A DNA stretch of 50,078 nucleotides from Candidatus Poribacteria bacterium (GTDB lineage: Bacteria > Poribacteria > WGA-4E > WGA-3G): contig JAJECN010000039.1 in NCBI GenBank assembly GCA_022821965.1, positions 1 through 50,078 on the forward strand. Reading direction: 5' to 3'. The notes beneath the pieces are model-generated. The model saw only the letters and a list, made by a program, of their open reading frames with translations. It was not told the origin of the DNA and ran no database searches. The translations under genes and the position numbers were made by a program. Below are positions 1,234-18,134 of the stretch, piece by piece; the first letter of the stretch is position 1; every line of letters begins with the position of its first letter.

Positions 1234-1400
1234 AAGAGGGTTTCGGAACCAGTCAACTACCCAAACCTAAAGACTTGGGCTTGTTAAGAGATCATCAAAC
1301 AATCTAAGTTGTTTAGCAGTCTCTAAGCCCGAAATCTTTGTTGCTTCGTTCTTGTTTCTCGTTTCATAGAGGGTGGTAACCCACCGCTCTCCACGAAAGG
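1232..1400 (-). ncRNA. predicted TnpB omega/reRNA with guide
   Basis: In this family the guide RNA is transcribed from the 3' part of tnpB through the right end. Here the minus strand runs from the tnpB tail into the terminal hairpin 1279-1260, then TAGTTGAC ending at 1252. The guide would be the next about 20 bases, 1251 down to 1232, beginning TGGTTCCGAAACCCTC. The 5' boundary at 1400 is only a placeholder. This is inferred from position and family behaviour. Confidence 0.4.
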
Positions 1401-2586
1401 CAGCAGCTGCCTTATAGAGTATGTTTCGTGCAGCGTTGTGGTCTCGGTCTAATATCGTGCCACAAAAACTACAATCGAAGGTCCGTATCGCCAGCGATAG
1501 TTTCTTTGGCGACTTCTTACCACAACTTGAGCAGATTTGCGAAGTATTTTTGGGGTCAACTTGGTGGAAGTGGAAACCGTCTCTTTCGGCTATGTTTCCA
1601 GCCCACTGAAAGAACTTTGCCCAAGACGCATCGGATATGCTCTTGCTGAGGTGTTTGTTCTGAACCATATTTGATACGCTGAGGTCTTCAGCGACAAGGA
1701 CGTTATTTTCGTAATGATGAAAAAGTTTGTAGACGAGTTTCCCAATGAAATCTTTGCGTTTGTTGGCAGTGCGTTCTTGGTGCAGGGCAGACGCATGCAC
1801 GGCTTTATACCAGCGTTTGCTCCCTTTTTTACGGCGTGCCATCGTCTGATTGTGTTTATGAAGCAAACCTTCTGCCTTGCGATACCAACGCGGATTGTCC
1901 TCTTTTTGGCCTTCAGAAGTCGTCAGATAGTGTGTCGTGCCAACGTCAACGGCAATCGCAGTCGTCGGCTCAACTTTCGGCGTATCTGGCAACTCACAGG
2001 TAATATGGGCATACCACCCCGACGCTTTCTTGACGAGTGTCACTTCTTTTGGGTCGCCTTGAAGCGAGCGGTGCATATATATCTTGACTTCGCCAAGTTT
2101 CGGGACTTTCAAGCGGTCGTGTTTCCATGCTGTCTCTCGGATAGGATTTTGGCGAACGCGTATTGTCTGTTTGTCAGCGTCTTTTGTTTTTCGACGAACC
2201 ACTTTGGTATATTTGCGAAGTTTCCAGGTCAGGGACTTTATCCGTTTACGGTGTCTTGGATAGCCTTTTTTTCCAGTACCCTTCTCGCAGCGTCTATAAA
2301 AACCTTCAAACGCTTTATCCGTGCGCTCCAAAGTGCAGATTTGCATATCTTGTGGGACTTGGCGAAAGTCAGCGTATTTTTCACGAGCAACCTTCAACTT
2401 CTTTTGTTGGTCGTTGATAGAGACGCGTTCGCCTTCAGTCTCCCAAGCAACCTTGCGATCATGGCGCGCAGAGTTCTGAAGTTCACACAAGTGGTCAAGC
2501 CACGATAATAATGTTATTTCCTGTGTCTTTGTTGGATACACAGGATATTTGAAGGTCAATTTCATGGTATATCGTGTATCGTGCAT
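1267..2586 (-). CDS. tnpB: TnpB, RNA-guided nuclease of IS200/IS605-type element
   Basis: This 439-residue protein has the full TnpB layout: an N-terminal OrfB helix-turn-helix/wedge region, then a split RuvC nuclease. RuvC-I is AIAVDVGTTHY (D214), RuvC-II is VLVAEDLSVSNM (E300) and RuvC-III is DRDHNAARNIL (D380/D382). A zinc ribbon between them has C352, C355, C372 and C375. All catalytic and zinc residues are intact, so the protein is probably active. TnpB proteins cut DNA guided by an RNA made from the element's right end. The start at 2586 has AGGGGA five bases upstream; the family's usual N-terminus (MKLTFKYPVYP) begins at residue 8 (2565), so that is an alternative start. The last codons and the stop lie inside the right-end hairpin. 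Confidence 0.92.
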   Translation of the reverse strand: MHDTRYTMKLTFKYPVYPTKTQEITLLSWLDHLCELQNSARHDRKVAWETEGERVSINDQQKKLKVAREKYADFRQVPQDMQICTLERTDKAFEGFYRRCEKGTGKKGYPRHRKRIKSLTWKLRKYTKVVRRKTKDADKQTIRVRQNPIRETAWKHDRLKVPKLGEVKIYMHRSLQGDPKEVTLVKKASGWYAHITCELPDTPKVEPTTAIAVDVGTTHYLTTSEGQKEDNPRWYRKAEGLLHKHNQTMARRKKGSKRWYKAVHASALHQERTANKRKDFIGKLVYKLFHHYENNVLVAEDLSVSNMVQNKHLSKSISDASWAKFFQWAGNIAERDGFHFHQVDPKNTSQICSSCGKKSPKKLSLAIRTFDCSFCGTILDRDHNAARNILYKAAAAFRGERWVTTLYETRNKNEATKISGLETAKQLRLFDDLLTSPSL

Positions 2587-2821: not shown

Positions 2822-4273
2822 TTATTTAAGATCACATTTGAGAAAGGAGAGTTGTGCTGCAGTAAAGAACAGGATATTAAAAAGGATTAGCAAGCCGACG
2901 GGCAAAATAACACTTTGATACGAGGGACGCTCTTCAAACCTTGGCACAGCGTTCGGGTCTACCGGTTTTTGGGACAAGCCTTCCCGCACAGGATAGATAT
3001 GTAAACTCTCTGGGTCGTCCCTATCCTCCGTTTTAATGAAATCTATAAAGGTTTGTCTGTAACGGCGCACCTGTTTAACAAAATCCATATAACTGACGAT
3101 CCCAGTGTTTGCAAGTCCCTCCATCGCATATTGGAAGCACACTATCGGGGAGATTTGGGTGAGTTCCCGGGCAAGTTTTACCTGCCTCAATTGCTGGTCT
3201 ACATGTTCGTCAGCGATGTGGGTTTTCGTCTCGTACCTTCTCGTGAAATACGTCGCCCATCGGCGTGTTGCTGATGGGTTGTCAGGTGAAGGTGCTTCGC
3301 TAAGTTTCGTTACCTCCAGCAATTCCATTGGACGAAACTCATCTTCAATGTTCGCTAATTGTGCACGTTTTCGCGAGGAAACGATCTCTATTGACGGAAT
3401 TGGGTCGAGGGTGCCAACAAAGAGTCCGATCAGACTCGGAAAAATCAACGCTAAGCATACCCAAGTTAATAGCAGCCACACTAAACCGGTAATGGCATTT
3501 GATACCCGACTTGAGAAAAATAGACCCAGAAAAATAAAAATGGAGATATGCAGCGCGAAAAGCCCGATCATCCCCAAAATTCTGAGGCAATCTTCTGAAT
3601 TGAACGCAATACTCCCTGAAAGATAGATGATTAGTAGGTTCATCAGGATACCGATTACGAGCGGCAGCATGAGTGTAAAAAACGCGCCCAGATATTTCGC
3701 TAACAATACCTGTCCTCGGGAAATCTGATTAGACATCATTAGACTCAGTGTTCCCTGTGCCCGTTCCCCAGCAATCGCATCGAAAGTGAACAGTATGACA
3801 AAAAAACTCATGAAGATACCGATGAAGACCCAGTCGATTTTGATGCGTGTGGTCGCGTCACTGCCGTGATTTGAGGGTAGGTATTCAAGTGTCCATACTT
3901 CTCTCCAATTGTAGGCTTCCCCTACTGCTCCTCCACGAGCTGCCCCTGAGCGTTCTGCTATCGGTATAGAGTTAGGGATGAGCGCATCAGCCCCGTCAGC
4001 GCAGAACTTGAACCGACTTGGTAGTCTGTGAATTTCACCGGGACCTCGCATCGCGAGTCTTCCTAAATTCTCCTTAGCATCGTCTTTGACACGAGATAAT
4101 CTCCTCTCCATCGCGCGGTTATACACATCAACTTCTTTTCTATATCCACCATCGCCGAATCCGTATATAAGCGCGTTTGCTACCATCAAGACAGGCAGAA
4201 GGATTATCATTAAAACGAACCGCAGCGTCATGAGGTTGTGATATATCTCTTTTTTCGCAATGTGCCAGATCAT
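2822..4273 (-). CDS. ABC-2 type transporter permease (type A, copy 2)
   Basis: This 483-residue integral membrane protein has about six membrane spans (near 18-38, 147-167, 196-219, 232-253, 258-283 and 457-475). A large hydrophilic loop lies between spans 1 and 2, and another before the last span. The ABC-2 permease signature follows span 2: GERAQGTLSLMMSNQISRGQ then LLAKYLGAF. It starts MIWHIAKKEIYHNL, matching the gene at 5918-7339 (MIWHIARRELYNNL), so the two are paralogues. It is the last gene of the minus-strand permease array. AAGGAAC upstream of the start comes from a dispersed repeat. The substrate is unknown; no ATP-binding subunit is encoded nearby. Confidence 0.85.
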   Translation of the reverse strand: MIWHIAKKEIYHNLMTLRFVLMIILLPVLMVANALIYGFGDGGYRKEVDVYNRAMERRLSRVKDDAKENLGRLAMRGPGEIHRLPSRFKFCADGADALIPNSIPIAERSGAARGGAVGEAYNWREVWTLEYLPSNHGSDATTRIKIDWVFIGIFMSFFVILFTFDAIAGERAQGTLSLMMSNQISRGQVLLAKYLGAFFTLMLPLVIGILMNLLIIYLSGSIAFNSEDCLRILGMIGLFALHISIFIFLGLFFSSRVSNAITGLVWLLLTWVCLALIFPSLIGLFVGTLDPIPSIEIVSSRKRAQLANIEDEFRPMELLEVTKLSEAPSPDNPSATRRWATYFTRRYETKTHIADEHVDQQLRQVKLARELTQISPIVCFQYAMEGLANTGIVSYMDFVKQVRRYRQTFIDFIKTEDRDDPESLHIYPVREGLSQKPVDPNAVPRFEERPSYQSVILPVGLLILFNILFFTAAQLSFLKCDLK

Positions 4274-4385: not shown

Positions 4386-5888
4386 TCAACTTATATCGTA
4401 TCGTAGGAAAGATAGATATGTCCCCATGAACAGAACAATGTTCCACGCTAATAAAATGAAAATATCTCCCGCCGCGCGCGAGAGACTCTCGGAAAGCGCA
4501 TTATATCGGTGTCGAAAAGTAGGTAGATCTGCGAACTCGGCTCTTCCTTTATCGCTGGAAAACCACGCCCGCGCGGAAAACGCGTTTTTGCTGGTGAGGT
4601 AATCAACCACCTGACGTTTATAATTTCGCGTCGCGCGTATAAAATCGTTGTAACTTTTCCTGTCCGTGCCGGTTATTGCCCCGATAGCGAAACGGTACGC
4701 GTCCGCGAAAGAGAGACGAGAGATGTTTCTACCCAATTGTCTGTTTCTTTCGCCAACATCTTCTCTCCGTTTCAGAATCTCTTCGGCATCGTTTGTATAG
4801 TCAATGCGAAGCGGTTCTTGGTATCCCAACACTTCCTGAAATTTGGAGACATCTACAATGCTAATAGGTTTGATTTCATAAAACTCTTGGAACCCGAGTT
4901 CCCCTGGTGAGCGCATACGTATTGATAGTGTGAGGGGACCATCGGCTATTTGGGAGAGCGCGCTTGTTGGATATTTATATCCCCATTCTCCGAGTTGGGC
5001 ATCCCGCTCGTCCTTGAAATCTTCCCACAACTGCTCAATCTGTTGTAGAGCTTCTTTTTCGGGTTGAAGTTTATGCGGCGGGAATTTCTCGACTGCAAAG
5101 GTTGCTATATTTGAATGAACGATCGTCAGAAGACCCCAAATGAACATTGAGAGGATCAGTGTCGTCGCTGCTTCCTTTGTCCACACTGATAAGAGCATCC
5201 CTAAAAGATAGCAGATTGACACATATAACAGCGAAACAACGAGTACCACGACGAGGCGTAGCAGATCACCAACATAAAAATCAGTAGCGGGAGAGGCATA
5301 AGCGATAACGATTCCGACAGTGAAACTCATCACCACAATCGGAAACAGAGACAGCACGCCGCCGAGGTATTTTCCAAGTACAAGGGCATCCCTCGGAACC
5401 GGATTGGATAACACCAGTTTCAGCGTGCCGTCCTCCCGCTCCCCCGAAATCGTATTGTAAGCGAACAGGATCGCCAACGCACTCAGCACGATTTTGAAGA
5501 CGAAAATGACATCAATGGAAAGGAAAATTGAAAGGAAAGGGTTGTCTGATCCCTGTTTTTGTGCTTCTTTTTCCCAAATAGGCGTTGCGGGTTCGATGCT
5601 CACCATATCCGCACCGGACTTTTCCGTTCCGACGTTAAAGATACTGAGCGGATTCGGTTTCCTGTGTGCTTTCGGATTAATTTGGCTGTAGAGATCCCAT
5701 GTTCGCTTTTCTTCTTGATGCTCCTGAAGAGCGGTGTGATACGCCGATAACCGCTTTTCGTAATCCGCAACCTGAACGAAAATGGCAGCAGCCGTTGACA
5801 TCAGGCAGACGACAAAACCGATCATGAATCGAGATGTTAGAACATTTGAGACGAATTCTCGTTGGATAATTAGCCAAAGTGTTGTCAT
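4386..5888 (-). CDS. ABC-2 type transporter permease (type B, copy 2)
   Basis: This protein of about 500 residues has an N-terminal membrane span, a long extracytoplasmic loop containing PNPLSIFNVG, then a cluster of spans around the ABC-2 signature SGEREDGTLKLVLSNPVPRD, and a C-terminal span. It is paralogous to the gene at 7456-8958, which shares PNPLSIFNVG, GSDNP and the same span order. The longest frame begins with GTG at 5900. The ATG at 5888 is preferred because MTTLWLIIQREF lines up with the paralogue's MLTTLIRRELL. It lies 29 bases after the upstream type A gene, so co-transcription is likely. The substrate is unknown. Confidence 0.85.
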   Translation of the reverse strand: MTTLWLIIQREFVSNVLTSRFMIGFVVCLMSTAAAIFVQVADYEKRLSAYHTALQEHQEEKRTWDLYSQINPKAHRKPNPLSIFNVGTEKSGADMVSIEPATPIWEKEAQKQGSDNPFLSIFLSIDVIFVFKIVLSALAILFAYNTISGEREDGTLKLVLSNPVPRDALVLGKYLGGVLSLFPIVVMSFTVGIVIAYASPATDFYVGDLLRLVVVLVVSLLYVSICYLLGMLLSVWTKEAATTLILSMFIWGLLTIVHSNIATFAVEKFPPHKLQPEKEALQQIEQLWEDFKDERDAQLGEWGYKYPTSALSQIADGPLTLSIRMRSPGELGFQEFYEIKPISIVDVSKFQEVLGYQEPLRIDYTNDAEEILKRREDVGERNRQLGRNISRLSFADAYRFAIGAITGTDRKSYNDFIRATRNYKRQVVDYLTSKNAFSARAWFSSDKGRAEFADLPTFRHRYNALSESLSRAAGDIFILLAWNIVLFMGTYLSFLRYDIS

Positions 5889-5917
5889 AAATGATGTCAC
5901 AAGTGTTGTTATCCGCG

Positions 5918-7339
5918 CTAAATCTCAACACGAACAAAGGCGAGATATGCCCCGGATAGTAGGACTACAACGAACAGCGTTAGCAACAACAGATCGACTG
6001 CTGCTGTGTTGAAGTCCTTGCTGAGACTCAGCGTATCTTCAAATTTTGGGACTGCCTCTGGAGCGACAGGTTTCTGCGACATACCCTCGCGAATACCAAA
6101 GATATGGAGACTTTCCTGATCCGCCCTATCGGTGTCAGCGATGAAAACCCGAAATTGACGCGCGTGAGATTTTACATTCTCCAAAAACTGTAGATGTCGC
6201 TCGAAGCCCGTGCCAGCATACGATTCGAGGAGGTGCTGAACAATCGCTACGGGTGAGATCCGAGTTGTGGCGCGTGCTAATTTCACCTGTGCAATTTGCT
6301 GTGCTAAGTGTTCTTCATGCATACGTCCCCGCTTTTCGGCATCTTTCATCACGAATTCACCTTGTATTTCTATTTTTTTCAATAGAGCCTCACGTGTTCC
6401 TTCTGGACGTGAGCGATATTCATCTAAACGACCCCAAAAATCATTACCCAGTTTATCGGTGCGTTCACGAAATTCGTCAGAAGTCATCGGTTGTGAAAAT
6501 CCGCCCGCAATGGAGGCGAGTGTGCTCGGTATGAAAACAACGAGTACCACCCAAGTTAATAACAGTACCACAAGACTGACTGCACTCCGCTGCACCCGTG
6601 CTGATACCAGCAAACCTAATGCAAGGAAGAGACATGTGTACAACAGCGCAATACAGAAGATAATACCTAAACGCACCCATGCATCTGTTCCAAGATAAAC
6701 AACACCTGATGTGTAGATTACTAATAAGTTCGTCAGGATAGCAAACGTTAATGGAATAGCAATACTAATCAACGCGCCCAAAAATTTACCGAACAGCACG
6801 GTGTGTCGTGGAACTGAATTTGCCAACATCAATCGTAGGGTACCACGCTCGCGTTCACTGGAGATAGCGTCAAAGCTAAAAAGGAGCGCGATCAGACTTA
6901 AAACGTAACCGATGATGAAGCCCCAATCCACTTTGGTCACAGTTGGATTGATGTTTCGCAAATTGGGTGTAGCCGATGGATAGCCCAATATCCAGAAACT
7001 TTCTAACGTGCCTGCTCCCCAAAGTTGATATCCACCTTGTGCCCGTCTTGACAAAAAGTCTTCACCGCCTTCCGCACAGAACCGGAGTGGCGAAGGCTTT
7101 TTGTAAAGATCCCCGGGTCCCTTCTGCGCGAGTCTATACAAACTCTCCTCTGCATGAGATATTATGCTATTCTGGTATCTAACGACATCGTCTTGATACT
7201 TCTTTATCCGCTTCGGATGTTCACGGAGATACACAACGGCGTTGGTCAGCATCAATGCTAACAGCAGCACGGTTGTTAGTGCAAATCGGAGACTATGAAG
7301 ATTATTGTAGAGTTCACGCCTTGCAATATGCCAAATCAT
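5918..7339 (-). CDS. ABC-2 type transporter permease (type A, copy 1)
   Basis: This 473-residue permease starts MIWHIARRELYNNL. It has one N-terminal span, an extracytoplasmic loop with FCAEGGEDFLS, and then a core of spans. The ABC-2 motif is SSERERGTLRLMLANSVPRH followed by LFGKFLGALI. It is paralogous to 2822-4273: both carry FCA(E/D)G in the loop, LHI(F/Y) with REG(M/L)SQKPV before the last span, and the same overall length. With the type B gene upstream (7456-8958) it forms the first copy of a duplicated B-A pair. The substrate is unknown. Confidence 0.85.
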   Translation of the reverse strand: MIWHIARRELYNNLHSLRFALTTVLLLALMLTNAVVYLREHPKRIKKYQDDVVRYQNSIISHAEESLYRLAQKGPGDLYKKPSPLRFCAEGGEDFLSRRAQGGYQLWGAGTLESFWILGYPSATPNLRNINPTVTKVDWGFIIGYVLSLIALLFSFDAISSERERGTLRLMLANSVPRHTVLFGKFLGALISIAIPLTFAILTNLLVIYTSGVVYLGTDAWVRLGIIFCIALLYTCLFLALGLLVSARVQRSAVSLVVLLLTWVVLVVFIPSTLASIAGGFSQPMTSDEFRERTDKLGNDFWGRLDEYRSRPEGTREALLKKIEIQGEFVMKDAEKRGRMHEEHLAQQIAQVKLARATTRISPVAIVQHLLESYAGTGFERHLQFLENVKSHARQFRVFIADTDRADQESLHIFGIREGMSQKPVAPEAVPKFEDTLSLSKDFNTAAVDLLLLTLFVVVLLSGAYLAFVRVEI

Positions 7340-7455: not shown

Positions 7456-8958
7456 CTACACTTCACTCTTGATAAAAGTCAGAAATATTATGATGAACAG
7501 AATTATATTGAGCAGCAGCAGTAGACATATATCCAGAAACGCCCGTTTTGTATTTATACTTATATCACTTCTCTGGAAAGAAAACTTCGGCAGCAAGTCC
7601 CACTCAGCAGCACCTTTATCTCCAGCGAACCATTGTCGAGACTCGAACACCTTTTTATCATGGTAGTGGTCAACCATCTGCTGTCTATATCGTCTTGCAG
7701 TCTCGAAAAAATCCCTAACGCCGTTTAGGTCTGTACCGGCATAAGCCTGCGTTGCGGTATCATAGAGTCCGACAGGTGAGAGTCTCAATAGTGTTCTATT
7801 GACTGTTGCTCGCCGGATAAAAAGTTCCTCAAGCACTGATTGCCGGATGTTCCATGTTTGATCTGCTATGTCAATGGTCCGCGGCACGAGGAAACGGTAA
7901 TAATTCTGAGCAAGCGGCACTTTAGGTTCGGATTCCTCTTTGATATCTTTAATGTTGACAGCCCTTATGTAGTAAGACAGTAATACTGATGGGTCCTTCC
8001 TAAGATATGTCATGGACCAACCGCCACCCAGACCATACCCCGAATCTTCCCCTGGCTCCGAATCGTTCTTGAGGTATTGTATTCGTTCCCTGTCGAATTC
8101 GTCCCACAACTGTTCAATTTGATTGAAAAGGGATATCCTGTCTGCTTTTGAAGCTTCTTGGGGACCAAACGCAGCAAGGATCACATTTGGATAGACCAAT
8201 ACCAAAAACCCCCAGACGAACATTGATAGCATGAGTGCGGTACTGGTCCGGCGCGTTATTGCGGAAATCAGTAGCCCGATAAGATAGAACACAGACAGAT
8301 ATACGATAGAGGCAAAAACAATCCCACCGATTCGTAGAAAATCGTCTATACCCAGGGAAATTGAAGAGGACGTTGTTAGCAGAATCACAGCGAAGAGCAA
8401 GCTCATTATCAGTGGAACGAGCAGACAGAGCATCGCACTCATATATTTGGCGAGCAGTATATGTCCACGACCAACCGGGTGTGTCAAGACCAGACGCAAT
8501 GTGCCACCCTCGTACTCCCCCGCAAGTGCATCGTAGGCGAAGATGAGTGCTAATAGACTCAGAACCACCTGAAAAATAAAGATAATATCAATTGAGGAGA
8601 AGATATCCATAATCGGATTATCTGAACCGTGTATTGCGGCATCCCATAAAGTCGGTACAAATCCGTGATAAATCTCTACTTGGTTCCCCAGTTGTTTGTC
8701 TAACCCTACATTGAATATGCTTAAAGGGTTAGGCGGACGGTCGATAAGCACTTTGCTCATCGAATAGGTTTTTTTCTCCAGCATTTGCTGCCGATGTGTT
8801 TTAACAGCAGTATTGTAGTCTGCTAAACGCCGTTCATAATCTTGTATAAGCACAACGGTGTTCGCGATAACAAGCAACAGTGTAATGAAGACAGCTGCAG
8901 CAAATCGGAACGTCATGAGGTTGTCAAGGAGTTCTCGGCGGATGAGTGTTGTTAGCAT
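7456..8958 (-). CDS. ABC-2 type transporter permease (type B, copy 1)
   Basis: This 500-residue permease has an N-terminal span followed by a loop (PPNPLSIFNVGLDKQ and GSDNPIMDIF). Multiple spans surround AGEYEGGTLRLVLTHPVGRG, the ABC-2 signature, then LLAKYMSAM, and there is a C-terminal span (LLLLNIILFIIIFLTFI). The frame extends to 8979. The ATG at 8958 is chosen because it has GGAG eight bases upstream and aligns with the paralogue. It is the first permease downstream of the ECF-BNR genes, on the same strand after a 177-base gap. The export or import role and the substrate cannot be read from sequence. Confidence 0.85.
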   Translation of the reverse strand: MLTTLIRRELLDNLMTFRFAAAVFITLLLVIANTVVLIQDYERRLADYNTAVKTHRQQMLEKKTYSMSKVLIDRPPNPLSIFNVGLDKQLGNQVEIYHGFVPTLWDAAIHGSDNPIMDIFSSIDIIFIFQVVLSLLALIFAYDALAGEYEGGTLRLVLTHPVGRGHILLAKYMSAMLCLLVPLIMSLLFAVILLTTSSSISLGIDDFLRIGGIVFASIVYLSVFYLIGLLISAITRRTSTALMLSMFVWGFLVLVYPNVILAAFGPQEASKADRISLFNQIEQLWDEFDRERIQYLKNDSEPGEDSGYGLGGGWSMTYLRKDPSVLLSYYIRAVNIKDIKEESEPKVPLAQNYYRFLVPRTIDIADQTWNIRQSVLEELFIRRATVNRTLLRLSPVGLYDTATQAYAGTDLNGVRDFFETARRYRQQMVDHYHDKKVFESRQWFAGDKGAAEWDLLPKFSFQRSDISINTKRAFLDICLLLLLNIILFIIIFLTFIKSEV

Positions 8959-9135
8959 TAATGACTCTCCAGTGCACACTTACAAGACATATATCGAACA
9001 AAAAAGTGATGTGTGTTGGGTTTCGTGCTATTTCCATGTGCATCAACGCTTCATGGAAAGGCGAGATTTCTGTTATAGGGTGTGTTTGTTTTTTCGCGCT
9101 CAACCCAACCTACGGCCCCCTATAGGAATATACGT

Positions 9136-11946
9136 CTACTGATTGGCACGCTCAAGACGGAGCACGCCGCGATGTTCCGTTCCGACGAAAAAGGTATCTC
9201 CATCAACGACAAGAGAGGTCATAGCATCTGGAATTTCGGGCACAATTTGTTCCCAAGTCCGTGTTTCCTTTTCTAAGTGATAGATGCCGTCGTCGTTCGC
9301 GCCATAGACAGCATCCCCTGCTGTTGCTAACGACTTAACAATTACGCTTGTCCCTGCTTTATCGGTGATTGCACGCCAAACAACACCATCTATTGATTTG
9401 AAAACGCCTTTGTCGGTCGCGACATAAACCGTTGCATCGGCAAAGACAATTTGATTGAATTGCTCAACAGATAGCGGTAGGTTTGATGTAATGTCTTTCC
9501 AAGTATCACCACCATCAAGTGATTGGACGAGATGTCCATCCCGTTTACCGACGTATACTGTTTCACCCGATGTAGCAATTTTAAAACGTTGTGCCATGTT
9601 TTCACGTGTGAGTTCGCAAGTTTCTTCTACACCGGTATCCGACCATCTTGCGTCACCCGGTTCCCATCGGAAGAGTTTATAGTTGTACTCCATGTAGTAC
9701 GTTTCCCCACTCACCGCGAAGTTACCGTATAAACCTTCCGACATCAAGTCGTAAGTTAGTTGACGATCACCTTGTTTTTGACCCAATAGTTTCAAAAAGC
9801 ATTCTGCGCCAAATTTCGGATTTTCGCGTATTATCTGGGTTGATAAATCCTCAGAATCAGTATCTGGGTCATCTGTAGAGTCGATAAAGGTAATTTGTCC
9901 CTCCTGTCTCGGGAACCGATAAGAATCAAAGGGAAGTGTCATTCCCCCGAACACGGTCGATATGAGCGTTCCTGAATCTCGAGGAGGCGGTGTCATTCCC
10001 TCTTGAAAAATATAACCCTCAACAGCAACTAAGCAATTTTTGTCTGGATCCAAACGATAGTAAGCCGTCTCACAATTACGTCGAATTCCTTTTGCATACA
10101 GAACACCGTTGGATTCGGAAATCTGCACAATGAGCGGCGTGTCTTCTCTATCTTTTACTTTCGCATTGAACTTCGGCACCTCAAGCGTATACTTTGGTCG
10201 TTCAATGTCAACAGCCGTCCACGAACTACCTGCGTCTGTTGATTTGACCACACCCCCGACAACCGTCGCGTACAGCACCTTAGATGCTTTTGAATTTGGA
10301 CTCGTTTCTAAACTGATTAAGTTATTCACACGGCACTCGAACCTTGTATTGAATCGGTGCCACGTTTCACCGCCATCCCTTGAACGATGAATTCCAGTGA
10401 TGCCGCCGGTATAAAAGGTGTTTTCGTCTAAAGCGACAGAACAGTTCACGCTAAACTGTATAGGTGTAATACCGGAAGATTCTGTGGAACGCCAAGTGTT
10501 TCCACAGTCCGTTGAGCGAGCCACAATGCCTTCCTCTCCACCTATCAATAAGACGGTTTTTCCAGACGCGACCAATTTAATCGACGGCAACGTTTTCATT
10601 ATCAGATTTCGGGCATCCGTAGGCGTTATGTCTGTCCAAGAGTCGCCTGCATCGGTTGATCGGAATACCCACCACGAATCTTTACTGATGTCACACAGAT
10701 TATGGTAATTTTCATCTGGTGTTCCGTCACCTTCCATTATATTTACTTCTACGGCGACATAGATATTGTCTTCAGACACCACCAAAGAACGCACTACTAC
10801 AGTATTGTCCACTGGCAACTGTAGGTGTTCCCAAGTTCCTGTCTTGAAGCGGTAGATTCCGAGAGAGGTTCCGGCAAACAGAGTGCCTCCGCTCAACTGT
10901 AATGTATAGATTCCCGATTTCTGTGTGAAACGGCTGTCTAAACCGTTGTTCATGTTTATCCACGAATTTCCAGCATCATCAGATCGGAAAATACCTTCAT
11001 TAAGGGTAACGTAAAAGGTATCTTCTGTAATGTGTAATTCCCTCATATATCCGTTTGGACAAGGACCGATAGAATTCCAAGTTTTGCCTTCATCCGTTGA
11101 GGCGAACAACTCATCAGATGGGATAATATAGAGCGTTCCGTTGTGTTCGGCAATGGGGATATTGCCCTTGGTCCCTTGACGTAAAAAATCAGCGTTAACA
11201 AGTTGCCATTCATTTTCACCGAACGGTAATTTGTAAATGTTCTCATAACCCATTACTGCGTAGAGCGTCCCATCCGATGTTTTCGATAATGTGCCTACTG
11301 GCACCGCTACACCGGGTTCATTCATCTGAATCCACTTCATAACATCCTCCATGAGATCGTCTGACACGTGGAAACCGCCCAAGACTTCCTGAACCATAGG
11401 GGTTTCTTTCCTCAATCGTTTCCGGGCGCGATGGAGTCGACTCTTGACCGTGTTCGGTGACATCTCCAGAAAGTCGCCGATTTCTTCACAACTCATCTCA
11501 CTCAGATAGTGAAGTGCCACCACTGTCCGTTCACGCGTCGTAAGTTTTTGCAGAAGGTATTCAACAATCTCGCGTTGCTTTTCTGTTGCCGACCTTTCGG
11601 TCTGTTCTGCCATATACTGGGTGTAAAACAGTGCCTCTACTTCTGCTTCACTCATCGCTTCTAAGGATTGCATCGGATTTTTTTTCTCCCCGATCCATGT
11701 GAGAAAACAGCGCGTAGCAATCATATACAGCCATCCCGAAAACCGATTTGGATTCCTCAGTGTGCCAAGTTTTTCGTAAGCTCTGAGAAAAGTATCCTGC
11801 GTAATCTCTTCAGCGATGTGGTAGTCTCTCACTCTCCGCCATACGAACGCGTGTATCTGTTTTTCGTACTTTTTCACGAGCGCAGTGAAAGCATATTCGT
11901 CGCCTGCCAGGATACGTTCGATCCATTTAGCATCATCGTTTTTCAT
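9136..11946 (-). CDS. ECF sigma factor fused to BNR/Asp-box beta-propeller
   Basis: In this 936-residue fusion, residues about 1-185 are a complete ECF sigma factor. Region 2 carries EEITQDTFLRAYEKL and region 4 carries EEIGDFLEMSPNTVKSRLHR. A short conserved linker follows (VSDDLMEDVMKW). From about 215 to the end there are BNR/Asp-box (YCF48/sortilin-like) propeller repeats: STDEGKTW, SDDAGNSW, STDAGDSW, STDCGNTW, SRDGGETW, STDAGSSW and SLDGGDTW. No membrane span or signal peptide is seen, so the propeller is predicted to be cytoplasmic, unlike most BNR proteins. It is paralogous to 12059-14800. GGAGG precedes the ATG. It probably senses something through the propeller and directs RNA polymerase; that is inference. 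Confidence 0.88.
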   Translation of the reverse strand: MKNDDAKWIERILAGDEYAFTALVKKYEKQIHAFVWRRVRDYHIAEEITQDTFLRAYEKLGTLRNPNRFSGWLYMIATRCFLTWIGEKKNPMQSLEAMSEAEVEALFYTQYMAEQTERSATEKQREIVEYLLQKLTTRERTVVALHYLSEMSCEEIGDFLEMSPNTVKSRLHRARKRLRKETPMVQEVLGGFHVSDDLMEDVMKWIQMNEPGVAVPVGTLSKTSDGTLYAVMGYENIYKLPFGENEWQLVNADFLRQGTKGNIPIAEHNGTLYIIPSDELFASTDEGKTWNSIGPCPNGYMRELHITEDTFYVTLNEGIFRSDDAGNSWINMNNGLDSRFTQKSGIYTLQLSGGTLFAGTSLGIYRFKTGTWEHLQLPVDNTVVVRSLVVSEDNIYVAVEVNIMEGDGTPDENYHNLCDISKDSWWVFRSTDAGDSWTDITPTDARNLIMKTLPSIKLVASGKTVLLIGGEEGIVARSTDCGNTWRSTESSGITPIQFSVNCSVALDENTFYTGGITGIHRSRDGGETWHRFNTRFECRVNNLISLETSPNSKASKVLYATVVGGVVKSTDAGSSWTAVDIERPKYTLEVPKFNAKVKDREDTPLIVQISESNGVLYAKGIRRNCETAYYRLDPDKNCLVAVEGYIFQEGMTPPPRDSGTLISTVFGGMTLPFDSYRFPRQEGQITFIDSTDDPDTDSEDLSTQIIRENPKFGAECFLKLLGQKQGDRQLTYDLMSEGLYGNFAVSGETYYMEYNYKLFRWEPGDARWSDTGVEETCELTRENMAQRFKIATSGETVYVGKRDGHLVQSLDGGDTWKDITSNLPLSVEQFNQIVFADATVYVATDKGVFKSIDGVVWRAITDKAGTSVIVKSLATAGDAVYGANDDGIYHLEKETRTWEQIVPEIPDAMTSLVVDGDTFFVGTEHRGVLRLERANQ

Positions 11947-11983
11947 GCGTGTCCTCCAATTAATAACGTTGGCTTGTGAGCTG

Positions 11984-12020
11984 TGACAGGTATTATAGGG
12001 GAGCGGGTTGCAAATTCGTA
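11984..12020 (-). promoter_or_regulatory. candidate ECF-type promoter upstream of sigma-BNR gene (copy 2)
   Basis: Minus strand: ACGAATTTGCAACC (12019-12006) contains a TGCAAC box resembling ECF -35 elements. Seventeen bases on is CTGTCA (11989-11984), resembling an ECF -10. The same arrangement and spacing lies upstream of the paralogue. An overlapping TATAAT (11997-11992) could instead be a sigma-70 -10 with a poor -35. Confidence 0.5.
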
Positions 12021-12058
12021 ATTTTGTGTCTCAAATGTCTTAAAAATTTCCTTACCCT

Positions 12059-14800
12059 TCAACCTTGATGTGCCAAAGCACCAGTACGTTCAAAACGAAG
12101 TACGCCGCGATGTTCGGTGCCAACGTAAAAGGTATCCTCATCAACAACGAAAGATGTCACAACACCTGAAATTTCGGGCGCAACCTGTTTCCAAGTATTC
12201 GTCTCACTTTGTAGGTGATAAATACCTTCATCGTTAGCTCCATAGATGGAATCCCCTATTGTAGCTAACGATTTGATGATAATATGTTCCCCAGTTTCAT
12301 CAGGGAGCGCATCCCAAGTAACCCTGTCTATTGAATTGAAAACCCCTTTATCAGTGGCGATGTAAACCGTTGAGTCTGTAAGGACTATCTCCTCGAAGTG
12401 CTCAATAGACAGCGGCAGGTTAGGTGTGACATCGTTCCAATTGTCTCCGCCATCAAGCGATTGCAAGAGATGCCCATCCCGTTTACCGACGTAGATAGTT
12501 TCGTCTGATGCAGCGATTTTAAAGCCTTTCCATATATTGTCCCGCGAGAGTTCACCGGTCTCCTCTATACCGGTGTCGTGCCATTCCGAGTCACCGGGTT
12601 TCCAGCGGAAGAGTTTATAATTGTATTCCATGTAGAACGTTTCACCACTGACTGCGAAGCTTCCACCCAATCCCGCTTGAACCATTTCATATACCAGTTG
12701 AGCATCTGTTTGTACCAATTGCTTGAAGAAGATATCTGCCCCGAAAACCGGGTTGTCAAACAGCGGTCTGCCAGTCAACGGATCCTTCTCAAAAACTGGA
12801 GTCTTTCCTCTTGTTCCACGTAGTGCAGGGTTGAATAGTTCACGTGAGCCAAAAGAAGGTGGCACTCCGTCAACATTGGTCAAGGTACCGCTATCATCGG
12901 ACAATTGAAAAATCAAAGTTTCAGACTTCCTCCGATTTACTTTGGCATAGAGAACGTTATCAGTGTCCGCTATCTGCACGACCTCCAGCGTCGTTTCCCT
13001 GTATTTACTGTTCGGTAGGACCATCTCCACGCCGACAGCATTCCATGATACGCCTCCATCGGTTGATTTAACGACATCTCCACCGATCCTATCAACCGAT
13101 TTTGCGATTCCCCTCCCAACCCTTGCATAAAGGACAGTGGATATATCCTGAACTTGATTCGTCATGAAACCGACTAAATTATCGACTCGACTCTCCAATC
13201 TTGTATTAAATCGGTGCCACGTTTTACCGCTATCGGTTGAACGATGGACCCCACTGTTTCCGACTGTATAAAACGTGTTTTCGTCCAACACTAAAGTCTT
13301 TCTCACGCTAGACCATGTAGCGGAAATATCTGTAGATTGTAAGGGAGTCCACGTGTTTCCGCTATCCATCGAACGCACCATCGTCCCATCCTCTTTTCCC
13401 ACCGCCAGAAGCGTCTTTCCTGTCGCAATCAATGTTATATCGGGACGCAAGCCTGTCAGATTCCAAGCGTTCATGGGTGTTACGTCCATCCATGAATCTC
13501 CGCCATCGGTTGAACGGAAAATCCACCACGAACGTTTTTCACCCTTCCACAGTTGTTCCCAAGTCTCGTCGGGTGCTCCATAGAATTTTAAAAAATTCAC
13601 TGATACCGCAACATAAATCTGGTCCTCACACACCGCGAGAGAACCGACATGCACAATGTCATCCACCGGCAGCTGTAGGTATTTCCAACTCCCTTTATCA
13701 AGGCGATAGAGTCCGATATCTGTCATCACAAACAGCATGTCTTGGCTTATTCGTAATGAGTGAACCCCAGAGTAGTCTGCCAAGCGACTGTCTACACCAT
13801 CATTCAGAGCCTCCCACGAATTGCCAGCGTCATCGGACCGAAATATACCATGACCGAGGCAGAGATAGAAGGCATCTTCCGTTATCATAAGTTCGCGCGT
13901 ATAACCTTTTGGACAGGGACCGACAAATTCCCACGTCACACCCCCGTTGGTTGACGCAAACAATTCATGAGATGGGATAATATAAAGTATACCATCCCGC
14001 TCTGCTATAGGTATCTCACCGCGAGTATTCTGACGCAGGAGGTCAGCATTTACAAGCTGCCATGCCGCCTCACCCATCGGTAATTTGTAGATACTTTCAT
14101 CCTCCACAACAACATAAAGGATATTTTCCGAAGTTGCAGACAGGGTCCCTACCGACCCCGCCACACCGGGTTCATTTACCTGCGTCCATTTCATAATGCC
14201 ATCCATGAGGTCATCAGAGCTCTGAAAGTTGCCTAATGTTTCGCGAACCATAGATTCCTCCCCCTTTAACCGTTTCCGAGCACGATGGAGTTGGCTCTTA
14301 ACTGTGTTCGGCGATACCTCCAGAAAATCACCAATCTCTTCACACGTCATTTCACTCAAGTAGTGAAGTACCACCGCTGTCCGTTCACGTGCCGGTAATT
14401 TTTGAAGGAGATACTCAACGATTTCGCGCTGCTTTTCTGTCGCCAATTTTTCGGTCTGTTCTGCCATATATTGGGCATAGAACAGTGCCTCTACTTCTGC
14501 TTCACTCATTGCCTCTAAGGATTGCATCGGGACCCTTTTCTCACCCAACCATGTAAGGAAGCGACGAGTGGCAATCATATAAAGCCAACTGGAAAATCTG
14601 TTTGGATCTCTCAGCGTACCGAGTTTTTCGTAAGCCCTGAGAAAGGTATCCTGCGTAATTTCTTCAGCGATGTGGTAATCCCTTACCCTTTTCCATACGA
14701 ACGCGTGTATCTGCTTCTCGTATTTTTTCACGAGAGCAGTGAAGGCGTTCACATCGCCTGTCAAGATACGTTCAATCCATTTCGCGTCATCGTTTTTCAT
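12059..14800 (-). CDS. ECF sigma factor fused to BNR/Asp-box beta-propeller (paralogue)
   Basis: The protein has 913 residues from the chosen ATG at 14800, which has GGAGG upstream and aligns with the neighbour's start (MKNDDAKWIERIL). The frame stays open to 14905 but that extension is not conserved. The ECF sigma regions (EEITQDTFLRAYEKL; EEIGDFLEVSPNTVKSQLHR) occupy about 1-185. The linker SSDDLMDGIMKW is followed by a BNR propeller (STNGGVTW, SDDAGNSW, STDGGDSW, SMDSGNTW, STDSGKTW, STDGGVSW, SLDGGDNW). It is very similar to 9136-11946 along the whole length, indicating a tandem gene duplication. No transmembrane segment was seen. Promoter DNA is conserved too, so the copies may cross-regulate. 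Confidence 0.88.
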   Translation of the reverse strand: MKNDDAKWIERILTGDVNAFTALVKKYEKQIHAFVWKRVRDYHIAEEITQDTFLRAYEKLGTLRDPNRFSSWLYMIATRRFLTWLGEKRVPMQSLEAMSEAEVEALFYAQYMAEQTEKLATEKQREIVEYLLQKLPARERTAVVLHYLSEMTCEEIGDFLEVSPNTVKSQLHRARKRLKGEESMVRETLGNFQSSDDLMDGIMKWTQVNEPGVAGSVGTLSATSENILYVVVEDESIYKLPMGEAAWQLVNADLLRQNTRGEIPIAERDGILYIIPSHELFASTNGGVTWEFVGPCPKGYTRELMITEDAFYLCLGHGIFRSDDAGNSWEALNDGVDSRLADYSGVHSLRISQDMLFVMTDIGLYRLDKGSWKYLQLPVDDIVHVGSLAVCEDQIYVAVSVNFLKFYGAPDETWEQLWKGEKRSWWIFRSTDGGDSWMDVTPMNAWNLTGLRPDITLIATGKTLLAVGKEDGTMVRSMDSGNTWTPLQSTDISATWSSVRKTLVLDENTFYTVGNSGVHRSTDSGKTWHRFNTRLESRVDNLVGFMTNQVQDISTVLYARVGRGIAKSVDRIGGDVVKSTDGGVSWNAVGVEMVLPNSKYRETTLEVVQIADTDNVLYAKVNRRKSETLIFQLSDDSGTLTNVDGVPPSFGSRELFNPALRGTRGKTPVFEKDPLTGRPLFDNPVFGADIFFKQLVQTDAQLVYEMVQAGLGGSFAVSGETFYMEYNYKLFRWKPGDSEWHDTGIEETGELSRDNIWKGFKIAASDETIYVGKRDGHLLQSLDGGDNWNDVTPNLPLSIEHFEEIVLTDSTVYIATDKGVFNSIDRVTWDALPDETGEHIIIKSLATIGDSIYGANDEGIYHLQSETNTWKQVAPEISGVVTSFVVDEDTFYVGTEHRGVLRFERTGALAHQG

Positions 14801-14837: not shown

Positions 14838-14874
14838 TGACAGATATTATAGGTGAGAGGGTTGCAAATTCGTA
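14838..14874 (-). promoter_or_regulatory. candidate ECF-type promoter upstream of sigma-BNR gene (copy 1)
   Basis: Minus strand: ACGAATTTGCAACC (14873-14860), then 17 bases after TGCAAC comes CTGTCA (14843-14838). The element ends 60 bases before the start codon, exactly as in the other copy. TATAAT at 14851-14846 is also shared. Confidence 0.5.
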
Positions 14875-15025
14875 TCTCGCACGCGGATTTTAAAAAATTG
14901 TCCAAACTATAGTGGTATATTGACAGTTATGGGGCAATTTCCTAACCGCATCTACTGTGTGATAGGAGGCGTAAATCCTGATTTTTTTGTTATCGGTAGT
15001 GGGTAGTTTACTACATCAGCTGCAG

Positions 15026-18007
15026 CTATTCGCTTTTGGATGAACCTGTGAGGACTTTATTCCAATCCCATAAGAGAGTTGTACCATCCGCGGCGGTGCT
15101 GACGAGCGTTTCCCCATCAGATGAAAATGCTAACGTTCCGACTTCTTGCGTATGCCCATCAAGCGTAACGATCCTGTTTCCTGTTGTAACATCCCACAAT
15201 TGGATTGCGCCGTTGCTAAGTCCGCTAACAAGAATTGTTCCATTTGGTGAAAATACCAACGATTTGGGATCGTCCCCGAACGGCGTATCATTTCGCTTAT
15301 CCTCAGTGTTGTACGCGGTGTTGACTGATAGCAGTTTATTACCCGTATCCACATCCCATATACGGATCAGGCTATATAACCCATCAGCAATCATGGAGCC
15401 ATCTAATGAAGAACGCAGACGGATCAGACTATATGAACCGGCAGCAAGCGAGGATCCATCTGATGAAAAACGCAGTGCTAAAATTCTCGTCGTATCTTCT
15501 TGGTCTGTTGGCTTCGCAAAGACTGCTAATGCTTTACCGGTTGCAACGTTCCACGTCTGGATTCTGCCTTGATCGGTGCCACTGACCAGTGTCGTGCCAT
15601 CCGGTGAAAACCCCAAAGCGGTGATGCGCGACGTATTGTGAATATCGGCTTCCCGATCAACGAGAGGAATGTTCAGTTCATCACCGGTTTCTGTATTCCA
15701 CAAATGAATTCTTTTAGCTTCAGAACTGCAGGCTACTGTTTTCCCGTCAGGCGAAAAAGTCAGATGTGAGGGGGTTTTAATATCTGTAAGGGTTGCCAAT
15801 TCGATCCCTGTGCTGACATCTGTCACACGAAGCGAAGAACCTGCACTCCAGAGCGCGTGGTTGAAACCTGGGTTGAAGATTACGTTACCGAAGGCATGAA
15901 CACTGGCGAGTTTCGTTCCATCCGGCGAAAATGCTAAAGTTGCTAACCAATCTTGATGTCCTGCCGTATGGACAGTGGGTTTTTGGGGTGTTTTCGGATT
16001 CCAAAATGTGATTTCACCATTAAAGGCGACACTTACAAGCGTGGAACTCTCTTGAAAGAAAGTCGCTGCTCTTACCGACGCTATATGTCCTGTGATTTGG
16101 GGCGGTAGCGGCGCACCGGTTCCTGGCCGCCAGAACCGAATGGTGCCGTCGGCACTCCCACTTGCAAGCATGGTGCCATCGGGTGAGAACGCTAACGCAG
16201 TAATACCGTTGACATGTCCAGTGAGTGTCGCGAGTGGCTCACCCGTGATAGTATCCCACAACTGCACTGTTTTATTGGTACTTCCACTTGCGAGCATTTT
16301 ACCATCCGGTGAAAACGCTACCACATTTGTCCAAGGTGCTAACCCATAACCGGTGTATTTTTCTTGAAGGGTAATCCATTCGTCGTTGTTGCTATCCCAT
16401 AATCGGGTTGTATTATCCTTGCTTCCACTGGCGAGTTTCGTGCCATCAGGTGAAAATGCCAATGCTAAGACTTGGGGACCATCCCACATACCCGCTGATC
16501 TGCCATGTCCTTTAAAAATCGATAACTGTTTACCGGTTTTTGGGTCCCACAACTGTATTTCCCCATCAGCCGATCCAATCGCAATTTTATCGTATGTGAG
16601 CGCGGAGACCGCAGGATAAGGTATTCGCAAGCCAAATTGTGCTTCGGTCTTCTTCACATATCCCCGTCCAGTCTCAACATCTAACCAACCCATTGTGTCG
16701 CCCTGGTTACCTAAACTGACAAGTGTTTTGCTATCTTCAGAAAACTGCAATACAGATCCGGCAAAAGGTCCACCAATGAGCGGTACTTTACGCTCCGCAG
16801 TTATCTCCCACAATTGGAGTTCCTGTCCGGGAAACTTGCCACCACCATTCGCCAAGAAGCGTCCATCCGGCGAAAATGCAAGGGATTGGCACATCCCCGG
16901 AAATAAAAACTTCTCTGCACCGGTTTCCGTATTGTACAACCACACACCGATATCCGTTCCCACAGCGAGTTGTGTCCCATCCGGCGAAAACTGAATCGCA
17001 TTAATGCCGCCCTTTCCGAAACGTGCTTTCGCCGCTTCGGGGAGTTCCGATTGAAAATAGTCTGTATCCGTTTCCTCTGATTCTGCCTCTGCGACCGATG
17101 CTGAAAACTCATTAGGCTGTCGATGAGAGGCAGTGTTCTTACCTGGTGTATCAACATTCCCGAGCTGCGTCCGAACATCAGGTTTGGATTCAAGGTTTAG
17201 CACGACAGGAGCTTCAATGAGTTCAACTGTCATCTCCGAAGTCGCATCGAAACTGTAGGGTTTCTGGAAACTTGCTAAGTATTGATTGCCAACACCTAAC
17301 ATCAAAAGCATGACTACCAGTGTGGAAATACCTATTGCCCATGGAACGAACGGTTTACCATTAGGGGGTGCAATCGGTTTCAGACGCGAAATTTCATGCA
17401 TAATATTTTCTGTAAGATTCGGCGTAATTTGGAAGTTGCCTAAAGCCTCTCGAATCATCGGTTCCTCCTTCTTTAACCGCTGTCTTGCTCGGTGGAGCCG
17501 ACTCTTAACTGCACTGACCGATACGCCTAAAAAATTGCTTATCTCCTCATAATTCATTTCCCCGAGGTAATAAAGCGTAATGACTGTGCGATCGCTCTCC
17601 TGTAACTTCGCGAGCAATTTCTTGACAACTTCGCGCTGTGCTTCTGCTGTTGTTTGCTCGTTTTCCTCAATAACATATCCAGAATACGTTACTTTTTCTA
17701 ATTCAGCGCTGCTTGTGTCTTCCAACGCCTGCGTTGATAAACGTTTCTTACGCAGCCACATTTTGCAGTAGTTCGCCGCTATCACATACAGCCAACTCGC
17801 GAAACGCTGCGGTTTTTTCAGTGTTGAGAGTTTTTGATACGCCTGCAGGAATGTATCTTGTGTAATATCCTCGGCGATATGGAAATCCCCGATCTTCCGC
17901 CACGCCAGTGCGTGAACGGATTTCTGATATTTTCTCACAAGCACGGAGAACGCAGTATCATCGCCTGAAAGAACGCGTTGGATGAGTTGAGCATCGTTGT
18001 TTTTCAT
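15026..18007 (-). CDS. membrane-anchored ECF sigma factor with C-terminal WD40 propeller
   Basis: In this 993-residue protein, residues 1-185 form an ECF sigma factor (EDITQDTFLQAYQKL in region 2; EEISNFLGVSVSAVKSRLHR in region 4). One strong membrane span lies at about 221-240 (WAIGISTLVVMLLMLGVG). A low-complexity stretch follows, then WD40 repeats from about 330 to the end, many with FSPDGxxLASGSxDxTxxLWD. The topology implies a cytoplasmic sigma domain and an extracytoplasmic propeller. ECF-WD40 fusions are known in Planctomycetes; a span inside the fusion raises the question of how sigma reaches promoters (regulated proteolysis is one option). The linker after region 4 (NFQITPNLTENIMHEI) resembles that of the two BNR fusions, so all three share an origin for the sigma part. 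Confidence 0.88.
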   Translation of the reverse strand: MKNNDAQLIQRVLSGDDTAFSVLVRKYQKSVHALAWRKIGDFHIAEDITQDTFLQAYQKLSTLKKPQRFASWLYVIAANYCKMWLRKKRLSTQALEDTSSAELEKVTYSGYVIEENEQTTAEAQREVVKKLLAKLQESDRTVITLYYLGEMNYEEISNFLGVSVSAVKSRLHRARQRLKKEEPMIREALGNFQITPNLTENIMHEISRLKPIAPPNGKPFVPWAIGISTLVVMLLMLGVGNQYLASFQKPYSFDATSEMTVELIEAPVVLNLESKPDVRTQLGNVDTPGKNTASHRQPNEFSASVAEAESEETDTDYFQSELPEAAKARFGKGGINAIQFSPDGTQLAVGTDIGVWLYNTETGAEKFLFPGMCQSLAFSPDGRFLANGGGKFPGQELQLWEITAERKVPLIGGPFAGSVLQFSEDSKTLVSLGNQGDTMGWLDVETGRGYVKKTEAQFGLRIPYPAVSALTYDKIAIGSADGEIQLWDPKTGKQLSIFKGHGRSAGMWDGPQVLALAFSPDGTKLASGSKDNTTRLWDSNNDEWITLQEKYTGYGLAPWTNVVAFSPDGKMLASGSTNKTVQLWDTITGEPLATLTGHVNGITALAFSPDGTMLASGSADGTIRFWRPGTGAPLPPQITGHIASVRAATFFQESSTLVSVAFNGEITFWNPKTPQKPTVHTAGHQDWLATLAFSPDGTKLASVHAFGNVIFNPGFNHALWSAGSSLRVTDVSTGIELATLTDIKTPSHLTFSPDGKTVACSSEAKRIHLWNTETGDELNIPLVDREADIHNTSRITALGFSPDGTTLVSGTDQGRIQTWNVATGKALAVFAKPTDQEDTTRILALRFSSDGSSLAAGSYSLIRLRSSLDGSMIADGLYSLIRIWDVDTGNKLLSVNTAYNTEDKRNDTPFGDDPKSLVFSPNGTILVSGLSNGAIQLWDVTTGNRIVTLDGHTQEVGTLAFSSDGETLVSTAADGTTLLWDWNKVLTGSSKSE

Positions 18008-18119: not shown

Positions 18120-18134
18120 GGTTGCAGATTCGTA
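18120..18134 (-). promoter_or_regulatory. shared upstream element of ECF-WD40 gene
   Basis: Minus strand ACGAATCTGCAACC (18133-18120) matches the element before both BNR fusions at 13 of 14 positions. It lies 113 bases from the start rather than 60, and no CTGTCA is found at 17-base spacing. It may be a -35 with a diverged -10, or an operator. The rest of the 275-base gap (18008-18282) holds no gene I can support. Confidence 0.4.

Follow-up and report, generated by a model that had tools for sequence, protein, structure and literature searches.

ECF sigma factors fused to Asp-box double propellers, with no membrane anchor and with ABC-2 permease neighbours, in Candidatus Poribacteria

The window, that is, the whole stretch of 50,078 nucleotides that was analysed, covers one contig in full and belongs to a 5.69 Mb genome of Candidatus Poribacteria in which sigma-70 region 2 is matched 76 times. 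Two tandem paralogues, referred to here as B1 and B2, and a third ECF fusion, W3, lie next to each other on the minus strand with the following features:

9136..11946, minus strand: B1, ECF sigma factor with two tandem seven-bladed Asp-box propellers, 936 amino acids, no transmembrane (TM) helix
11692..11880, minus strand: sigma region 2 of B1 (Sigma70_r2, residues 23-85)
11413..11571, minus strand: sigma region 4 of B1 (Sigma70_r4_2, residues 126-178)
10375..11310, minus strand: first seven-bladed propeller of B1 (residues ~213-524, from the structure model)
9139..10329, minus strand: second propeller of B1 (residues ~540-936, from the structure model; bounds approximate)
12059..14800, minus strand: B2, paralogue of B1, 913 amino acids, no TM helix
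14543..14734, minus strand: sigma region 2 of B2 (profile match)
15026..18007, minus strand: W3, membrane-anchored ECF-TM-WD40 paralogue and neighbour of B2, TM helix at residues ~221-239

B1 begins with the ATG at 11946 and ends at 9136 on the minus strand. B2 begins with the ATG at 14800, and the alternative longer start, a TTG at 14905, is unlikely because GGAGG stands before the ATG. In the Pfam profile search Sigma70_r2 and Sigma70_r4 scored well above their cut-offs in both proteins, and against TIGR02937 (sigma70-ECF) the two scored 91-100 bits compared to a cut-off of 42.9. The sigma domain is followed in both by Sortilin-Vps10, DUF6242, and BNR-type matches, and no WD40 repeats were matched in this search. 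The preliminary description of this DNA had placed here two full-length paralogues, each joining a complete ECF sigma factor to an Asp-box propeller of about 700 residues; its coordinates were right, and both are intact single chains in which the propeller part is about 720 residues long. Its claim that there is no membrane span is borne out by the best 19-residue mean hydropathy, which reaches 1.19 for B1 and 1.21 for B2 compared to 2.20 for W3. Neither a TM segment nor a signal was found in B1 or B2 by these 19-residue windows, which speaks against a hidden one.

The AlphaFold model of B1, made with 57 sequences, has a mean pLDDT of 82 and consists of the sigma helices and the two tandem propellers. 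These resemble GH74 enzymes, with a VIA-align Z of 24.7 over 562 residues at an rmsd of 8.7, and across the GH74 matches Z was 24-25, the rmsd 8-9, and the identity about 16%. The two propellers are arranged in the model as in GH74 but their placement relative to each other fits loosely. Foldseek also lists sensor domains with a double propeller, from receptors such as BT4663. When the PDB was searched by sequence with the propeller, only weak matches to Ycf48 and to designed propellers were obtained, and the NCBIfam family F510_1955 (glycosylhydrolase) matched below its cut-off.

The same ECF-propeller architecture, in one frame, recurs in about 40 related sequences of independent Poribacteria assemblies, and every close relative with a named record is a Candidatus Poribacteria. 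An assembly or frameshift artefact, in which sigma factor and propeller would be separate genes in close relatives, is thereby ruled out. In the TM-less proteins dN/dS was 0.03-0.2 for the sigma domain and 0.16-0.24 for the propeller; by this measure B1, B2, and their TM-less relatives are evidently under purifying selection in both domains, and the ratios rule out that B1 and B2 are pseudogenes.

How B1 and B2 came to lack a membrane anchor can be seen from their paralogues. Most of the sigma factors of this genome are fusions of up to ~1060 residues with otherwise varied C-termini, and among them are 23 ECF-Asp-box proteins, B1 and B2 included, and six ECF-WD40 proteins. Except for B1 and B2, every one of these Asp-box and WD40 fusions has a TM helix about 220 residues into the chain, counted from the start of the sigma factor, with a well conserved linker behind it; the protein at L041 and one of those at L067 fall slightly below the strict hydropathy threshold, yet the aligned TM segment is present in them. 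Since the single TM helix comes after a cytoplasmic sigma domain, the propeller of the TM-bearing proteins would be outside the cytoplasm, and the default of the family is presumably a sigma factor inside and a sensor propeller outside. When 42 TM-less proteins from roughly 30 genomes were aligned with 25 TM-bearing proteins, 42/42 of the TM-less ones proved to lack one and the same stretch of about 120 residues, TM helix and linker, at the same junction. In B1 this junction is:

11329..11346, minus strand: deletion junction of B1 by the alignment, ..LMEDVMK/WIQMNEPG.., residues ~201-206

In the trees both the sigma domain and the propeller of B1 and B2 share descent with the Poribacteria ECF-TM-sensor family. 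Alignment and trees together show that B1 and B2, which recur as a pair in many of the genomes with TM-less genes, derive by one deletion of the TM helix and linker from a family of the form ECF-TM-linker-extracytoplasmic sensor. With this segment deleted the whole chain is soluble and its location probably cytoplasmic, and the sensor module seems to have been moved inside the cell and kept there. The preliminary description had called the proteins soluble, apparently cytoplasmic, and unusual; this is supported more strongly than it was stated there, as the TM-less clade is both derived and conserved. The propellers of TM-less proteins have a mean of 6.7 cysteines compared to 1.6 in TM-bearing ones, as would be expected in the reducing interior of the cell, but the TM-less proteins form one clade and the difference therefore counts as effectively one event; the propeller of B2 has 3 cysteines only. 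Three genomes have hybrids (L094, L138, and L144) whose sigma domain groups with W3 and whose propeller nests in the TM-less clade, and in L094 and L138 a second copy of the segment that follows sigma region 4 is found past the TM linker. The hybrids are best read as TM-less propellers that were probably rejoined to a TM-bearing N-terminus. On the sigma tree, whose branch support is weak, TM status switches at least 8 times.

An ECF promoter was defined as a -35 element with AAC, a spacing of 16-17 bp, and a -10 element with YGTC. The motifs before B1 and B2 have this usual layout and each is therefore predicted to be an ECF-type promoter in front of the sigma factor's own gene:

11984..12012, minus strand: predicted ECF-type promoter of B1, TGCAACC-N17-TGTCA
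14838..14866, minus strand: predicted ECF-type promoter of B2, TGCAACC-N17-TGTCA
12006-12020, 14860-14874, and 18120..18134, minus strand: three copies of TACGAANNTGCAACC, upstream of B1, B2, and W3, respectively

In both genes the motif begins 66 bp before the ATG, and TGCAACC was found at -62 to -67 in 33/34 TM-less genes and was absent from this position in the three hybrids. The strict motif, TGCAACC-N17-YGTCA, occurs 15 times in the genome and 0 times in the reversed control; several of the 15 directly precede ECF fusions, one precedes an ABC ATPase, one stands before a putative regulator-propeller protein, and two stand before a putative STAS protein (these two names assigned by eye). 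Read forwards, a looser motif stands upstream of 14/56 ECF genes; read in reverse, it stands upstream of none. The three copies of TACGAANNTGCAACC are the only ones in the whole 5.69 Mb. Two variants of the sigma factor are present among the relatives, each with its own type of -10 element (18/19 and 13/13, one further row being out of register). This co-variation could stem from physical linkage without autoregulation, since the promoter adjoins the sigma-coding sequence.

Downstream of B1 four permease genes follow on the same strand:

7456..8979, minus strand: ABC-2 permease (ABC2_membrane_2 and DUF3526), downstream of B1
5918..7339, minus strand: ABC-2 permease (profile match and synteny)
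4386..5900, minus strand: ABC-2 permease (profile match and synteny)
2822..4273, minus strand: ABC-2 permease (profile match and synteny)

Beyond them lies a gene for a TnpB-type RNA-guided nuclease (1267-2586, minus strand), distant relatives of which are found inside the same gene cluster of other genomes (L146, L147). Large ABC-2 permease genes, mostly paired, follow TM-less genes on the same strand across the genus. Among paralogues of this one genome, an ABC-2 permease was found within 4.5 kb of 12/15 TM-less compared to 5/40 TM-bearing ECF fusions (Fisher p 4.5e-6), B2 counting as distant since B1 separates it from the permeases, and the permease is on the same strand in 12/12 of the TM-less cases. 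A tree-corrected test of TM loss against permease adjacency had 3 usable independent pairs and so no power. Permease and sigma factor counts rise together in the genus with a Spearman coefficient of 0.88 (first-look counts, uncorrected for descent). G044 was considered as a replicate and rejected, as with 18 sigma matches and 2 ABC-2 matches it has neither expansion. Outside the genus, plain soluble ECF sigma factors head a permease array in G047, and in G051 an ECF near permeases has its own candidate zinc-finger anti-sigma factor. An ABC ATPase is absent within 5 kb of 48/52 such permeases of this genome. At L186 (contig C42 of the same genome, 158548) an ECF-type motif lies 222 bp upstream of an ABC ATPase of the kind found with such permease arrays in other families, and this ATPase may act with the many permease pairs that lack one nearby. 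Elsewhere in this genome (L150:3930-16525, plus strand, contig C24) eight ABC-2 permease genes stand nearly consecutively with no ATPase, preceded by a gene for a soluble protein of 684 amino acids.

Fusions of other kinds were seen as well. At L065:443-2161 (minus strand, contig C59 of the same genome) the reading frame of an ECF runs on into a DNA polymerase III beta sliding clamp, which is complete with all three clamp domains; this locus also has ABC-2 permeases, and a clamp-tethered sigma factor recalls phage T4 late transcription. At L051:3083-4285 (minus strand) and L050:3794-7957 (plus strand) ECF sigma factors are fused to an FtsZ GTPase domain, and the frame at L050 runs on through FtsZ_C into the PHP, NTPase, and finger domains of DNA polymerase III alpha. 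Soluble ECF fusions with C-terminal AhpC/TSA peroxiredoxin-like domains lie at L045:3228-5270 and L073:3408-5270, both on the minus strand and each adjoining an ABC-2 permease pair. A stretch of ~900 bases at L088:2295-3259 is open in most frames of both strands and is probably repetitive.

The preliminary description knew of no described ECF-BNR class, and none was found in the open-access literature, nor was anything on WD40 sigma factors of Poribacteria; papers behind a subscription, including the main one on the reclassification of ECFs, perhaps lie outside the literature covered. C-terminally extended ECF sigma factors are themselves already known. The nearest are those of ECF57, which have a WD40-like C-terminal extension (PMC8999054), and WD40-ECFs have been described in Planctomycetes (PMC8567305). 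These share with the Poribacteria proteins an N-terminal ECF, a large C-terminal beta-propeller, and expansion in one lineage, and W3 has WD40 repeats as they do, but B1 and B2 lack this feature and have an Asp-box double propeller instead, and the Poribacteria default is a TM helix between sigma factor and propeller that was lost in B1 and B2. ECF57 has two conserved cysteines that link sigma2 and sigma4; read from the sequence alone, B1 has Cys80 and Cys153 and B2 has Cys153 only. ECF41, ECF42, and ECF56, which have C-terminal SnoaL-like or TPR regulatory domains, are likewise soluble chains with a fused regulatory domain, but the C-terminal domain of B1 and B2 is much larger and unrelated and they have permease neighbours. 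ECF243 IutY and ECF52 carry, fused to the ECF, a regulatory region that contains a TM segment (PMC8999054). The TM-bearing Poribacteria paralogues resemble these in having ECF, TM helix, and outer domain in one chain, whereas B1 and B2 have no TM helix and release by intramembrane proteolysis therefore cannot apply to them. BT4663, a hybrid two-component receptor, also has a large double propeller, which serves as a sensor; however, that sensor is periplasmic and its output is a histidine kinase, and B1 and B2 have an ECF output and no membrane anchor. With GH74 xyloglucanases, Ycf48, and sortilin-type propellers they share the fold and the Asp-box repeats, but they have no signal peptide and are fused to a sigma factor.

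We lean, though only slightly, towards B1 and B2 being working ECF sigma factors with their own C-terminal double propeller as regulatory domain. That they are decaying copies which lost the TM helix and their function is hardly credible: a segment present in other paralogues is indeed missing from them, but the relatives are intact, dN/dS is well below 1 in both domains, and promoter and synteny are conserved. Asp-box propellers are mostly secreted, and those of the paralogues are TM-anchored and would be extracytoplasmic, so that export of the B1 and B2 propellers by an unrecognised route might be considered. This is very unlikely, given an N-terminal sigma domain with no signal peptide and no hydrophobic segment, the higher cysteine content of TM-less propellers, and the cytoplasmic-type domains (replication clamp, FtsZ) of other soluble ECF relatives. 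The top fold matches, GH74 xyloglucanases, and the sub-cut-off F510_1955 match could also mean that the propeller is a glycosidase-like enzyme and that the fused sigma factor merely couples gene expression to it; this is improbable as well, considering the low identity to GH74, a cytoplasmic chain without an export route, and the pure sensors formed by double propellers in BT4663-type receptors.

The best reading is that B1 and B2 are soluble self-regulated sigma-sensors which would control a membrane transporter or act as its partner; which way the control runs is our inference. The proposal of the preliminary description that the propeller acts as an intramolecular sensor or anti-sigma factor is plausible; it rested on the window only and had missed the TM-anchored paralogues, the ECF-type promoters, and the linked ABC-2 permeases. 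The sigma domain would recognise the TGCAACC-N17-YGTCA promoter class, so that B1 and B2 would be auto- or cross-activated and the ATPase-less ABC-2 permeases directly downstream on the same strand would be co-transcribed with them. The cytoplasmic propeller would hold or release the sigma factor on a cytoplasmic ligand or partner protein, for which the substrate that is transported, or else the permease, would be the simplest candidate. It is conceivable, though we rate it as doubtful, that the adjoining permease pair is itself the membrane-side sensor or anti-sigma factor, which would bind the propeller and free the sigma factor on an outside signal in place of the lost TM helix. Permease neighbours are common to TM-less fusions whose C-termini are unrelated to each other (propeller, AhpC/TSA, sliding clamp, FtsZ, and others), most of the permeases lack a nearby ATPase, and plain soluble ECFs lead the array in G047, which is from another family, all of which would fit. 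But many permease pairs have no adjacent ECF, and another part of the genome encodes a matching ATPase with its own ECF-type promoter, so that the permeases are perhaps ordinary transporters that share one ATPase. As a tentative extension of the soluble sigma-sensor reading, Poribacteria may have a swappable sensor-sigma system in which one propeller works either outside or inside the membrane, sensing outside when anchored and inside when TM-less and coupled to the ATPase-less permease pairs as membrane partner, and loss and regain of the TM helix by recombination in tandem arrays would switch the side.

The control of C-terminally extended ECF sigma factors is so far mostly unknown. The Poribacteria family offers natural matched pairs, in which a related propeller occurs with and without an anchor; the promoter can be recognised and the gene neighbourhood is constant, and the effects of anchor and propeller on sigma factor activity are therefore directly testable. 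It would also suggest that sigma factors have ABC-2 permease pairs as their partners or targets.
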